Shown here: positions 26,494 to 39,424 of the stretch, in pieces
How the letters are laid out: each line of letters opens with the position of its first letter
Numbering within the stretch: the stretch's first letter is position 1
Source of the DNA: Methanobacteriota archaeon
GTDB lineage: Archaea; Thermoplasmatota; Poseidoniia; Poseidoniales; Thalassarchaeaceae
Length of the DNA stretch: 39,424 nt
Direction of reading: 5' to 3'
Assembly: GCA_014239955.1 (NCBI GenBank)
Contig: JAAZXW010000002.1
Location: 1-39,424 of the forward strand
Position numbers and translations under genes: made by a program
The notes under the pieces: model-generated
Told to the model about the DNA's origin: nothing
The model's database searches: none
What the model saw: the letters and a program-made list of their open reading frames with translations, nothing else

Positions 26494-28242
26494 ATGGTAA
26501 CGGAGCAGGAAGCAGGCGAAGAAAAACCCGAGAAGCCTACCTTCAACATACAACCGGGGGATTTGGGTGGCTTGATGGCAGAATACCCACACATCCGGGA
26601 ATGGATCGAGGACTTCGAAGCAAAGCACGGTTCTAGGCCGATATACTACGGACCACTCGATAGGGATGCAAAGAGCGTCAGTCCTCGGAACCTGATTTAT
26701 TCAACCAAGCCACCATGCTTCGCACACGTTTACTCCCCTCCGGAGGGGGCCGAGGGAGCAGGAAACACCTTCTGGTTCGGCCTCGAGCCAACCATCACAG
26801 CGGATGAGGAGGAAATCCGGGACAATATCGTGGAGCGCCTCCTCCGAGACGCCCCCCAGAAGGAGAGATTCGATGACGACGAGGAATTCATCATAATGAT
26901 TCACGAGATGATGGATGAGATGACCACCACCACGACCTCGTCATTCCTGTCGAATCCATTTATCAACCAAGCTAGGGAACTCATTGGCCTGGGCGAGGCC
27001 CCATTGAAGGTAACGCCTGAGCAGCTGGATCGCCTGAAGTACGTGGTTGTGAGGGATCTGGTGAACAACGGTCCCCTTGAGACGCTACTAGCCGACGAGA
27101 TGCTGGAGGACATTCACTCCATCGGCCTCTCGAGGATCAACATGGACCACAAGGTCTTCCCTATGCTCACATCCAATATCGCATTCAAGGACCAGGATCT
27201 CCTTACCAAGTATCTCAGATCCATGTCGGAGAGGATCGGGAGGCCAGTTTCCGACAGCAAACCAATTGTCGACGGTGCCCTGCTGGATGGCTCGAGAATC
27301 AATATTATCTACAGCGACGATGTCTCAATCCAAGGCTCTTCGTTCACGATTAGGAAGTTCGCGGAGGAGACAATCTCGATTATCCAGCTGATCAAGTGGA
27401 AGACCCTCTCGGCTCAGATGGCCGCATATCTCTGGCTGGGGCTCGAGTCGGGGATGTCCATGCTCGTCTCTGGAGAGACGGCATCCGGAAAGACCACGAC
27501 CCTTAATGCAATTCTCCCATTCATCGATCACAACGTCAAGATCTACACCGCCGAGGACACACCCGAGGTCAAGGTGGCCCACACCATCTGGCAGCGACTG
27601 ATAACTAGGGAATCGAAGAACGAGGACTCCCGTGTCGAGATGTTCGACCTGCTGAAGGCGGCACTAAGATCTAGGCCCAGATACATCATCATCGGGGAGA
27701 TTCGAGGAGTCGAGGGGGCAATCGCCTTCCAAGCTATGCAGACCGGACACCCTGTCGTCGGGACCTTCCACGCATCCAATATTGTGAAGCTCATCCAGAG
27801 GTTCACCGGAGACCCAATCAACGTCCCCGCACGTTTCTTCGACAATCTCAATTTCGCGATCTTCCAAGAGGTCGTCGAGGCCCCGGGAGGGGGAATAGCC
27901 AGGAGGATTACTGGGGTCAGTGAGGTCATCGGCTTCGACAAAACCGCAGACGGCATCTTGACCAGGAACATGTTCGAGTGGGATCCAGTTGCAGACGAGG
28001 TCTACTTCAGGGGGATGTTCCAATCGGACATGCTCGAAAACAAAATAGCCCCTAGGATGGGGTTCCGCAGTAAGAGGGACATCTACGACGAACTCCAACG
28101 GAGAACCGAGGCAATACAGAGGATGTGCGATCGCGATCTGACCCACTACGACGATGTGTTCGACCTCCTGGACATTTACTTCAAGGAAGGATGGGACAGA
28201 TTCATCTCTTCACTGGAGACTTGGACGGGAATTAATCACTAG
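26494..28242 (+). CDS. arlI: Archaellum motor ATPase ArlI
   Basis: Hexameric type II/IV secretion ATPase that assembles and rotates the archaellum. In the 582-residue product the Walker A motif is GETASGKTT (327-335), the Asp/Glu box YTAEDTPE is at about 351-358, Walker B YIIIGEIRG at about 397-405 and the His box TGHPVVGTFHASN at about 417-429. The N-terminal domain (about 1-150) carries acidic stretches before the conserved core. It follows arlH by 12 bases and precedes arlJ by 8. All catalytic elements are present, so the motor should be functional. Confidence 0.95.
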   Translation: MVTEQEAGEEKPEKPTFNIQPGDLGGLMAEYPHIREWIEDFEAKHGSRPIYYGPLDRDAKSVSPRNLIYSTKPPCFAHVYSPPEGAEGAGNTFWFGLEPTITADEEEIRDNIVERLLRDAPQKERFDDDEEFIIMIHEMMDEMTTTTTSSFLSNPFINQARELIGLGEAPLKVTPEQLDRLKYVVVRDLVNNGPLETLLADEMLEDIHSIGLSRINMDHKVFPMLTSNIAFKDQDLLTKYLRSMSERIGRPVSDSKPIVDGALLDGSRINIIYSDDVSIQGSSFTIRKFAEETISIIQLIKWKTLSAQMAAYLWLGLESGMSMLVSGETASGKTTTLNAILPFIDHNVKIYTAEDTPEVKVAHTIWQRLITRESKNEDSRVEMFDLLKAALRSRPRYIIIGEIRGVEGAIAFQAMQTGHPVVGTFHASNIVKLIQRFTGDPINVPARFFDNLNFAIFQEVVEAPGGGIARRITGVSEVIGFDKTADGILTRNMFEWDPVADEVYFRGMFQSDMLENKIAPRMGFRSKRDIYDELQRRTEAIQRMCDRDLTHYDDVFDLLDIYFKEGWDRFISSLETWTGINH

Positions 28243-36639: not shown

Positions 36640-38241
36640 ATGGCAAAGCATAGAGTCGGCGATCGTAGAATAATAACCGTCAGCATTCCAGAGGATTTGG
36701 CTAGAAGATTGGATGCACGGGTCGGTCAGGGACGTGAGAAGGGCAGATCGGCAACTATCTCCAAGATGATTGAGACCTCGCTCACTGGGGGCAATGCCCA
36801 TCAGATCGCTACCAAATCACCCGTTTCAAGGGTCCCCAAGGGTGTCCGTGGGAAGGTTAGGATTGAGCTAGACACTATGGGGGAGGTTGAGGTGCCAACA
36901 GACAGATATTTCGGTGCACAAACTGCTAGGTCGCTAATCAACTTCGATATCGGTGAAGACCAGATGCCCCGCTCAGTCATCCGAGCGTTTGGGATTCTTA
37001 AGCAGGCAGCCGCCGAGACAAACGTATTTCTGGGAACTCTCGACGATGATGTTGGAACTCTCATTTCAGAGGCATGCGAAGAGGTAATTTCTGGGTCTCT
37101 TGACGACCATTTCCCACTCAGGGTTTGGCAGACCGGTTCGGGAACCCAGACTAACATGAATGCAAATGAGGTAATTGCAAACAGAGCCATAGAGTCTTCA
37201 GGAGGGAAGCTGGGAAGTAAATCCCCTGTCCACCCTAATGACCACGTTAACCGTGCCCAGTCGAGCAATGACACATTCCCAACTGCAATGCATATCGCTG
37301 CAGCAGAGGAGATACAGCACCGACTCATCCCATCTGTACAGAAACTTCGAACTTCCCTGGCCGAAAAGGCAGATGAGTTCGTGCATATCGTCAAGATCGG
37401 ACGAACTCATCTGATGGATGCCGTCCCGCTAACTCTAGGCCAAGAGTTCGGAGCATATGTTTCGATGTTGGATGCTGGCCTAATTAGGATCCAAACAGCA
37501 CTGAATGACCTACTTGAACTCGCATTAGGTGGAACTGCCGTTGGTACGGGGCTGAACACCCATCCCGACTTCGCAGACTTGGTCGCCAAGAAGATAGCCG
37601 AGAAGACCGGCCTTCCTTTCATTAGTGCCGAAAACAAGTTCGCCCAACTCGCTGCACACGATGCCATAGTCGCTGCCTCAGGGGCACTCAACACCCTCTC
37701 AGCATCTCTCATGAAAATCGCCAATGATATTCGATGGCTAGGTTCTGGGCCCAGGTGCGGATTTGGAGAACTCGCTCTTCCAGCTAATGAGCCAGGATCA
37801 AGTATCATGCCTGGAAAGGTGAATCCAACCCAATCAGAAGCGATGACAATGGTTTGCTGCCAGGTAATGGGTAATCACACTGCAATTTCTATAGGTGGAA
37901 GTCAAGGGAACTTCGAGTTGAATGTATTCAAGCCAATGATGATTCACAATCTCTTGCACAGCATAAGACTACTTTCCGACACTTGCGTATCATTCTCTGA
38001 TAAGTGTGTAACTGGTTTGAAGGCAAACGAAGAGAAAATCTCAGACCACCTAGAGAACTCATTGATGTTAGTGACTGCTCTAAACCCCCACATAGGTTAC
38101 GACAACGCAGCAAAGATTGCCAAGAATGCCCACGAGAAAGGCCTAACTCTCAAAGAGAGTGCTATCCAACTGAAACTGCTCAATGAAGATCAGTTTTCAG
38201 AATGGGTAAAACCCAGTGACATGACAGGTCCGAGCCTGTAG
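36640..38241 (+). CDS. fumC: Class II fumarase with N-terminal ribbon-helix-helix DNA-binding domain
   Basis: Reversible hydration of fumarate to malate in the TCA cycle. Residues about 73-533 are a full class II fumarase: [59 protein letters not shown] (catalytic region), [19 protein letters not shown] and the superfamily signature [15 protein letters not shown] near 387-401. Ahead of it, residues about 8-50 read [20 protein letters not shown], then [12 protein letters not shown]: a strand followed by two helices, as in CopG/Arc-type ribbon-helix-helix DNA-binding proteins. The join is in one open frame with no start codon between the domains until Met80, inside the fumarase core, so a separate fumarase is unlikely. 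The fumarase is tetrameric, which would present four strands and thus two RHH dimers. Known fumarases end near 465 residues; this one is 533. Confidence 0.9.
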
Positions 38242-38307
38242 AGAAATCCCTCGACGAAGACTACGTTCAAGGTCGTAAAATGGTATGGGCCGAATTCAGG
38301 TGGGAGC

Positions 38308-38347
38308 AACAGGGGGTTCCACACATGGGGGAGTTTCCCCCCCTGTT
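38308..38347 (-). repeat. Alternative G/C hairpins in the candidate RNA
   Basis: On the minus strand AACAGGGGG (38339-38347 as its complement) can pair with CCCCCTGTT (38308-38316) over 9 bases. The same run of seven G's can instead close a GAAA-capped hairpin with CTCCCC (38327-38333 region). The two pairings are mutually exclusive. No T-run follows on the plus strand, so it is not an ordinary terminator for fumC. Confidence 0.5.
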
Positions 38348-38360
38348 AACTCCGCAGGGT

Positions 38361-38399
38361 CCGGGTGTCACCTGGGCCCGAAGGCCCAGGTTTCCCCGG
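38361..38399 (-). repeat. UUCG-capped long hairpin in the candidate RNA
   Basis: Perfect 9-bp inverted repeat ACCTGGGCC (38370-38378) / GGCCCAGGT (38383-38391) around CGAA, which reads UUCG on the minus strand. A further 5 bp (CCGGG 38361-38365 with CCCGG 38395-38399) extend it across a small internal loop. The c(UUCG)g cap points to the minus strand as the transcribed one. Confidence 0.65.
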
Positions 38400-38577
38400 G
38401 TAGACGACTCCGGAACTTCATGCTCTTCCTTTGCCATTTTCCGACTTTCAAGAGATCTCCCTCCTAATCGCCGCATCCGCTTCTGGTACTTCGTCTCCGC
38501 TTTCCCTTCCACGTCTCGATACTGGCTTCTCCACGGGTCTCCCCGCCCTTGTTGCCTGATGTTTCCCTCAGTTTCCT

Positions 38578-38700
38578 TCCCCTTCGTTTCCTCCGGTTTT
38601 CTCCACTTCGTTCCCCATCCACGTGACCCAGGATTATTCTCTTCCCCCTACGCACATGTATCTCTTCAACTCCTATCTCGCTCTCCCCTTCGTTTCCTCC
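38578..38700. repeat. 17-bp direct repeat within the candidate RNA
   Basis: TCCCCTTCGTTTCCTCC occurs exactly at 38578-38594 and 38684-38700, 106 bases apart. On the minus strand each copy contains GGAGGAAACGAAGG. Such an exact repeat in a short purine-rich stretch suggests either internal duplication or a repeated structural module. Confidence 0.7.
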
Positions 38701-38884
38701 AGTTCGTCCGATTTATTCGCCGCGACCTTCGCGTTCACATTCGCTCCAGTCTTTCCCCGAGATCCTTTCGTTTCTCGGTTCTACCGCCTCGGTTTCGAGG
38801 CTCAGTTTTTGTGGCCCGCGAGTCGCGCCGAAGCGCCCTCACACCACTCCCCCGGAGCGGCAAAGAACACAGGGTAATGGATGG

Positions 38885-38894
38885 CTCATAAACA
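38885..38894 (-). promoter_or_regulatory. TATA-like box for the candidate non-coding RNA
   Basis: On the minus strand the sequence reads CGAAATGTTTATGAGCC; TGTTTATGAG lies about 25 bases upstream of the first GC-rich structured bases, with CGAAA as a possible BRE. It sits between the end of the beta-propeller gene and the RNA. Confidence 0.4.
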
Positions 38895-38958
38895 TTTCGC
38901 TAATATTGTCGCAGTTCACTGGAAATAAGGGTCTTTGGGAGTGTTTTTCCACTGCAAA

Positions 38959-39424
38959 TCACCCTCCTCGCAGTCCACGTATTTTCCTCCGCATCTCTGA
39001 ACTCCGATCTTCCTCTGATATTTCTTCCACTGGAATAGAGAACCGACGCCGGAGCACATCCTCCTCGACTACATAGACGCAACCAGAAGAATCACCGAAG
39101 CAAATTACATTTCCAATACCGAAAGAAGATCGAATTCTAGAATGATGTGAAATCTCCAATTCCACACTTCCATCCGAAGAATCAATTAGACAAATCTTGG
39201 ATTCTTTTTCCCATGAAGAGGCCCAAACTCCCTTCCCATCACCCAATGATGGCCCGAAACTGACAATATCGATTACACCATGTAGATCAACAGACCAAGA
39301 TCCAAAAAATTCGCTTGAGGAAACAAAACCTGAATCCAATCCAACCACCCACCCATCAAAGTAGTCAATTGCACGAACCGATGACTCTCCATGAGTAATC
39401 GCCTGTACTTCATGACCAACAATC
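38959..39424 (-). CDS. Beta-propeller-like protein, 5' part outside window
   Basis: The frame is open to the right edge, giving about 154 visible C-terminal residues. Repeated blade-like units can be seen: ITHGESSVRAIDYFDGWVVG, SWSVDLHGVIDIVSFGPSLG, KICLIDSSDGSVELEISHHS and NVICFGDSSGCVYVVEED. Each has the hydrophobic-strand pattern 'G-x-V/I-x-x-I-D' of WD40/PQQ-like propellers. The tail (EEDRSSEMRRKIRGLRGG) is charged. The protein may bind partners or proteins; no specific family is recognised. A first in-frame GTG at 39348 is internal to the propeller and not the true start. Confidence 0.65.
   Translation of the reverse strand, partial: IVGHEVQAITHGESSVRAIDYFDGWVVGLDSGFVSSSEFFGSWSVDLHGVIDIVSFGPSLGDGKGVWASSWEKESKICLIDSSDGSVELEISHHSRIRSSFGIGNVICFGDSSGCVYVVEEDVLRRRFSIPVEEISEEDRSSEMRRKIRGLRGG

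Follow-up and report, generated by a model that had tools for sequence, protein, structure and literature searches.

A candidate new class of large structured RNA encoded at a conserved locus in Marine Group II archaea

Genomic Context and Predicted Promoter of the RNA Gene

The window analyzed here, a 39,424-nucleotide (nt) stretch corresponding to contig C18 of a Poseidoniales archaeon, probably one of the Thalassarchaeaceae to judge by named relatives of its fumarase, comes from a 1.28-Mb genome that is 79% complete, and near its right end a class II fumarase gene and a beta-propeller protein gene are separated by a gap that we find almost certainly to hold a structured RNA gene on the minus strand (Table 1). 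An initial annotation had described this gap as 717 bases of non-coding DNA with extreme strand asymmetry, c(UUCG)g-capped hairpins, an internal 17-base repeat, and a TATA-like box in the right place, and each of these features was recovered. The gap runs 717 bases from the fumarase stop (38241) to the next minus-strand stop (38959), and its purine skew is the strongest in the window (plus-strand purine content of 0.32-0.35, versus 0.38 for the runner-up elsewhere); the c(UUCG)g hairpins are two in number, at 38832 and 38382, and the repeat GGAGGAAACGAAGGGGA occurs at 38700 and 38594. The structured RNA that had been proposed at 38278-38866 also stands, with its 5' end refined to ~38864; we placed the ends of the gene using the TATA spacing, the limits of conservation, and a T-run at the 3' end, where the T-runs of several relatives are longer.

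Homologues in the family of the window (f1) and its sister family (f2) provide the comparative basis for this placement. The TATA-like box GTTTATG (38893-38887) is kept by the aligned homologues at a fixed distance, its center ~26 nt 5' of the conserved TTTGCCGC, and this distance together with the usual archaeal TATA-to-start spacing places the RNA start at ~38864. Farther upstream lies an inverted repeat whose exact pattern, CAGTGGAAA-N20-TTTCCAGTG, was found in 12 of 30 genomes searched and solely at the RNA locus, with 0 matches to the reversed control pattern among the same 30; diverged forms are present in f2 genera. We predict from these elements that the promoter is used and the RNA transcribed, and the upstream repeat may serve in its regulation. 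The confinement of the repeat to this one locus among the searched genomes raises the possibility of a dedicated regulator.

Table 1. Coordinates of the RNA gene, its structural elements, and its neighbors in the window (f, fraction of A7 sequences keeping the loop type)
Feature	Positions	Strand	Remarks
RNA gene	38278-38864	-	~587 nt from predicted start to T-run; conserved core ~565 nt; homologues, alignment A7, covariation
P1, 5'-terminal hairpin GCCGCUCC-nnn-GGAGUGGU	38843-38861	-	Strongest sequence signature
P2, hairpin with UUCG loop	38818-38842	-	Compensatory changes at 6/9 pairs; UNCG loop f = 20/25
Long-range closing helix, 5' strand GGG	38815-38817	-	Partner CCC at 38357-38359
Hairpin GCCUCG/CGAGGC with extension	38783-38806	-	Helices 4 and 5; helix 5 compensatory at 4/6 pairs
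Hairpin, GNRA loop	38757-38778	-	Helix 6 compensatory at 6/7 pairs; GNRA f = 24/25
Hairpin, UGUG-type loop	38725-38750	-	Helices 7 and 8; compensatory at 7/8 pairs
17-base repeat, copy 1, GNRA loop	38684-38700	-	GNRA f = 25/25
Middle domain	38518-38662	-	Closed by long-range helix GAUAC (38658-38662)/GUAUC (38518-38522)
17-base repeat, copy 2, GNRA loop	38578-38594	-	GNRA f = 23/25
Hairpin GCGGG-GAGA-CCCGU	38533-38546	-	Helix 20; 3 pairs compensatory; GNRA f = 22/25
Hairpin, GNRA loop	38490-38501	-	Helix 23 compensatory at 4/4 pairs; GNRA f = 20/25
Hairpin, GNRA loop	38450-38465	-	Helix 25 compensatory at 6/6 pairs; GNRA f = 24/25
Hairpin, UUCG loop in CCGGG/CCCGG stem	38361-38399	-	Helices 29 and 30 compensatory at 8/13 pairs; UNCG f = 15/25
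3'-terminal long hairpin GCGGAG...CUCCCA	38301-38356	-	C-rich apical loop; found in both families
T-run, possible archaeal terminator	38277-38280	-	3' of conserved CGGCCC; predicted from sequence
TATA-like box GTTTATG, predicted archaeal promoter	38887-38893	-	Conserved in aligned homologues
Inverted repeat CAGTGGAAA-N20-TTTCCAGTG	38917-38954	-	Upstream of promoter; possible operator or upstream activator
Class II fumarase	36640-38241	+	Neighbor, convergent with RNA; N-terminal ribbon-helix-helix-like extension
Beta-propeller (PQQ-repeat-like) protein gene, 3' part	38959-39424	-	Neighbor, upstream of RNA on same strand

Covariation and Secondary Structure

The initial annotation had suggested a covariation test on Poseidoniales homologues, which we carried out on an alignment of 25 full-length sequences (A7) with a consensus of 137 pairs in 32 helices. 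In this alignment 92.0% of the cells are paired, 81 of the 137 pairs show compensatory changes, and there are 305 double-change cells, compared with 82.3 ± 0.3%, 42.7, and 88.3 ± 8.7, respectively, in shuffled alignments, which ignore relatedness. When the structure is slid along the alignment, pairing drops to 36-42%, although the consensus came from the same alignment and is thereby favored over its slid versions. The excess of double changes is large despite these two biases. The strand follows from the wobble pairs: G-U cells number 308 and A-C cells 44, and therefore the minus strand is the RNA. Single-sequence folding energy adds only modest evidence (z = -2.0); the comparative result, above all the excess of compensatory cells, is what decides the case.

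The plus strand has an open frame of 203 codons at 38280-38891, and relatives commonly have one as well, which raised the prospect of a protein-coding gene; the plus strand is, however, pyrimidine-rich and therefore has few stops. Several relatives (L013, L015, and L020 among them) have broken frames, length differences inside the genus are not multiples of 3, and the variable sites are distributed over the three codon phases as 95/101/95. A conserved open frame with codon-phased substitutions was sought in the relatives and not encountered. By these measures the RNA region is non-coding for protein, and a plus-strand gene is refuted in practice.

Individual helices bear out a multi-branched fold. 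P1 is 100% paired in 11 sequences spanning both families, with double changes at 3 pairs, and the 3'-terminal hairpin is 95.8% paired in a further alignment (A6), where 19 double-change cells were counted versus 6.0 after shuffling. The middle domain is closed by helix 11, which is 92.5% paired and in which one pair changes from A-U to G-C in 7 sequences; within it, all cells of helix 20 that hold letters are paired. The GGG/CCC closing helix is likewise paired wherever letters are present, but it is invariant and so offers no covariation. GNRA loops are kept by six hairpins in 20-25 of the 25 sequences, different GNRA types replacing one another, and two hairpins have mostly UNCG loops. Of 120 conserved unpaired positions, 62 are adenines. 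The minus strand of the region holds exactly six GGAAAC motifs, as the initial annotation had counted; its proposal that all could form GAAA tetraloops is narrowed to those at 38697 and 38591, which occupy conserved GNRA positions. Pairing between the C-rich 3' loop and G-rich segments of the middle is no more than plausible in an RNA so rich in G, and a pseudoknot between CCACA and a UGUGG loop was rejected since it is not kept in L022, L155, and L162.

The homologous RNAs range in length from ~540 to 800 nt. In L025 and L024 a module resembling GGACGCAAGGAAGGGGAAGGAA, which is related to copy 2 of the 17-base repeat, is multiplied and lengthens the middle of the RNA, up to ~780 nt. One genome of genus g3 (G070) has the 3' hairpin twice, 300 bases apart (L311, contig G070:C85).

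Comparison with Known RNA Families

We compared the window with the 4,227 models of Rfam, in keeping with the covariance-model searches (RNase P, signal recognition particle [SRP], and all archaeal families) that the initial annotation had recommended. At gathering thresholds the window yielded a tRNA only, and a permissive scan of the gap (E ≤ 10) recovered nothing credible, its one 12-bit match being a chance match outside the RNA; the RNAs of relatives, including distant ones, matched no family at E ≤ 1. Records of phages and plasmids gave no match to the RNA, and searches of the literature found no report of it, save for a possible link to the RNA Tan1 discussed below.

An RNase P or SRP RNA that had diverged very far would fall in the right size class, and RNase P RNA was not found in the incomplete (79%) genome of the window. 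The archaeal models for these RNAs (RF00373 and RF01857) nevertheless fail to match the gap, the former at E ≤ 10, and both RNAs occupy separate loci, which excludes them as its identity. In the window's own genome the SRP RNA sits on a different contig (C4:94541-94853; E = 2e-30), and RNase P RNA scores above the family cut-off at other loci in 48 of 60 relatives, among them genomes such as G001, G005, G007, G010, G019, and G022 that carry this RNA together with a standard RNase P RNA elsewhere (E ~1e-70). The 3' end was also considered as a possible CR-V-like segment belonging to a divergent RNase P RNA, and this idea was dropped given that RNase P RNA is present elsewhere in the same genomes. 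These findings agree with the initial annotation, which had not recognized the conserved cores of either RNA, and reduce the chance of such an identity to almost nil. Of its two alternatives, a new RNA class or a very divergent known one, the first thus stands in that the RNA appears to lie outside the catalogued Rfam families, and the second falls as regards RNase P and SRP RNA.

Two functional classes were weighed on the same evidence. Many short hairpins in series and unpaired stretches that are conserved, among them the C-rich 3' loop and a GCCACA segment, would suit a guide or assembly RNA that pairs with rRNA or other RNAs in the multi-hairpin manner of H/ACA RNAs. Rfam guide families, including those of box H/ACA, give no matches at E ≤ 10, with motif geometry (k-turns and ACA box spacing) judged by eye alone, and the conserved unpaired positions, chiefly adenines, do not resemble guide pockets; we regard a guide function as quite unlikely. 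Similarly, the size, the ornate fold, and the near-invariant patches GUGGUGUG, CGCGGGCCAC, and GACCCUGCGGAG could be those of a new ribozyme class, but known ribozyme families give no match and there is no sign of a substrate, making catalysis improbable.

Distribution Across the Poseidoniales

Within the genus, BLAST searches recovered the region in 24 of 27 further genomes, the three without it being 53-67% complete, and most of the remaining f1 genera have it too; between genera, the alignments cover mainly the two ends of the RNA. Three covariance models, R2 for the 5' domain, R1 for the 3' domain, and R3 for the 3' hairpin shared across the order, together identified the RNA in 57 of 59 f1 genomes in an order-wide draw. 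In f2 the RNA is present in genera g14, g16, and g22, and the searches did not detect it in g11, g12, g13, g15, g17, g19, g20, and g21; a pattern match in G123 (g12) and a weak R3 match in G119 (g21) were judged to be chance. In a draw of 243 genomes from the phylum, R3 recovered nothing outside the order, under strict filters by which remote relatives could be missed. Contig G000:C21 ends (26999-27083) within a second version of the RNA locus that is 93% identical; we rejected a second RNA gene here since this contig end overlaps the same locus, and the copy is a strain variant in a genome bin that mixes strains.

The RNA is inherited at one conserved locus. In f1, as in g14 and g16 of f2, the beta-propeller gene is followed by the RNA and then by the oppositely directed fumarase. 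This position between the same two genes in most genomes might point to a cis element, such as an attenuator, an antisense segment, or a 3' untranslated region belonging to either gene. Such a role is highly improbable: the RNA has its own conserved TATA box and does not overlap the fumarase gene, g20 and g21 have both genes 3-7 nt apart without it, and g22 keeps the RNA following the beta-propeller gene although a different gene follows the fumarase. Since the gene order persists without the RNA, the neighbors are not evidence of its function.

The N-terminal extension of the fumarase (36640-36820) matches the ribbon-helix-helix (RHH) family PF01402 just under the cut-off (E = 0.001) and occurs in f1 and some f2 genera. 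We rejected a link between the RNA and this RHH-like domain, because g14 and g16 have the RNA without the extension and g13 and g20 show the reverse.

Related Elements on Viral and Other Contigs

A 72-kb viral contig in IMG/VR (IMGVR_UViG_3300007514_000005; L314) carries at 1532-2010 a TATA box with the same spacing followed by the 5' domain of the RNA, in the form TTTGCCGCTCC-TGT-GGAGTGGTGTG...CGCGCGGG. The match to R2 has an E value of 5.5e-6 over 48 kb and 4.1e-5 over 360 kb. About 430 bases of the putative viral RNA follow the 5' domain and show no match to the remaining parts of the archaeal RNA, and genes near the element encode a NUDIX protein and a DUF932 protein. Other viral contigs matched by DNA patterns were set aside, as only L314 combines a clear model match with the promoter spacing. 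Contig C32 of genome G019 also bears a short element that has a TATA box of its own and the same 5' domain (L133, 1361-1620; R2 E = 2.2e-7); outside the 5' domain it had no match in the 40 genomes searched, and the contig that carries it may be foreign.

Discussion

The locus characterized in this study would encode a large structured RNA of ~580 nt that is transcribed on its own and acts in trans. We propose that its multi-branched fold is tied together by GNRA tetraloops and conserved unpaired adenines, and that it acts as an architectural RNA, forming a stable RNA or RNA-protein particle. Tertiary A-minor contacts would require just this combination of GNRA loops with unpaired adenines, and the molecule may be compacted through such contacts. 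Because the fold appears to be tied in this way, we consider an architectural role the most likely of the functions weighed here, at about even confidence.

Several observations weigh against this proposal. Repeats give the middle of the RNA a variable length, at odds with a rigid core, and we identified no palindromic loop covarying as self-assembly would require. Several f2 genera are cleanly without the RNA at the locus, and the RNA is for that reason dispensable in the order. Particle formation, like transcription itself, is a prediction from the DNA.

The nearest counterparts in style are OLE, GOLLD, and ROOL, which likewise are non-coding, several hundred nucleotides long, and folded into multi-branched structures supported by covariation; A-minor contacts and self-assembly have been reported for these RNAs. 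The trait that marks such ornate RNAs, a large, multi-branched, covarying fold, is present here as well. The resemblance does not appear to be one of ancestry, as we detected no sequence relation: those RNAs are bacterial, their covariance models do not match, and their terminal hairpins differ, whereas the RNA described here is archaeal. GOLLD is partly phage-encoded (PMC12286853), and here one viral contig has the 5' domain. We offer as a tentative possibility that this is a lineage-specific class of large ornate archaeal RNA, distinct from rRNA, RNase P RNA, and SRP RNA, that builds an RNA-based particle in an abundant group of marine archaea and has its 5' domain and promoter arrangement in common with a virus. 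Archaeal RNase P and SRP RNAs, by comparison, resemble it only in being large, structured archaeal RNAs.

Among archaeal RNAs, Tan1 (Thalassoarchaea non-coding RNA 1) is an abundant 229-nt Marine Group II RNA with a complex secondary structure, found in "Ca. Thalassoarchaea" in a Red Sea metatranscriptome (PMC5069720). Tan1 could be a stable part of the RNA described here, in which case the identity and novelty of the latter would be affected and its mechanism would not. We think this rather unlikely; compared by description only, the two differ in length (229 nt versus ~580 nt here and ~540-800 nt among homologues), and Tan1 is reported to have five homologues at 75-79% identity, whereas BLAST aligns this RNA between genera mainly at its two ends.

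Large ornate bacterial RNAs have proved to have unexpected architectures (PMC12286853). The RNA described here is retained in almost every sampled genome of one Marine Group II family and in certain genera of the sister family.

Archaea have seldom been reported to possess large structured non-coding RNAs other than rRNA, RNase P RNA, and SRP RNA. The covariation model presented here is ready for testing, and the clean presence or absence of the RNA at a single locus among close genera provides a natural comparison through which its partners and function could be sought. Further, the occurrence of the same 5' domain on a viral contig points to a possible link between these archaea and their viruses.
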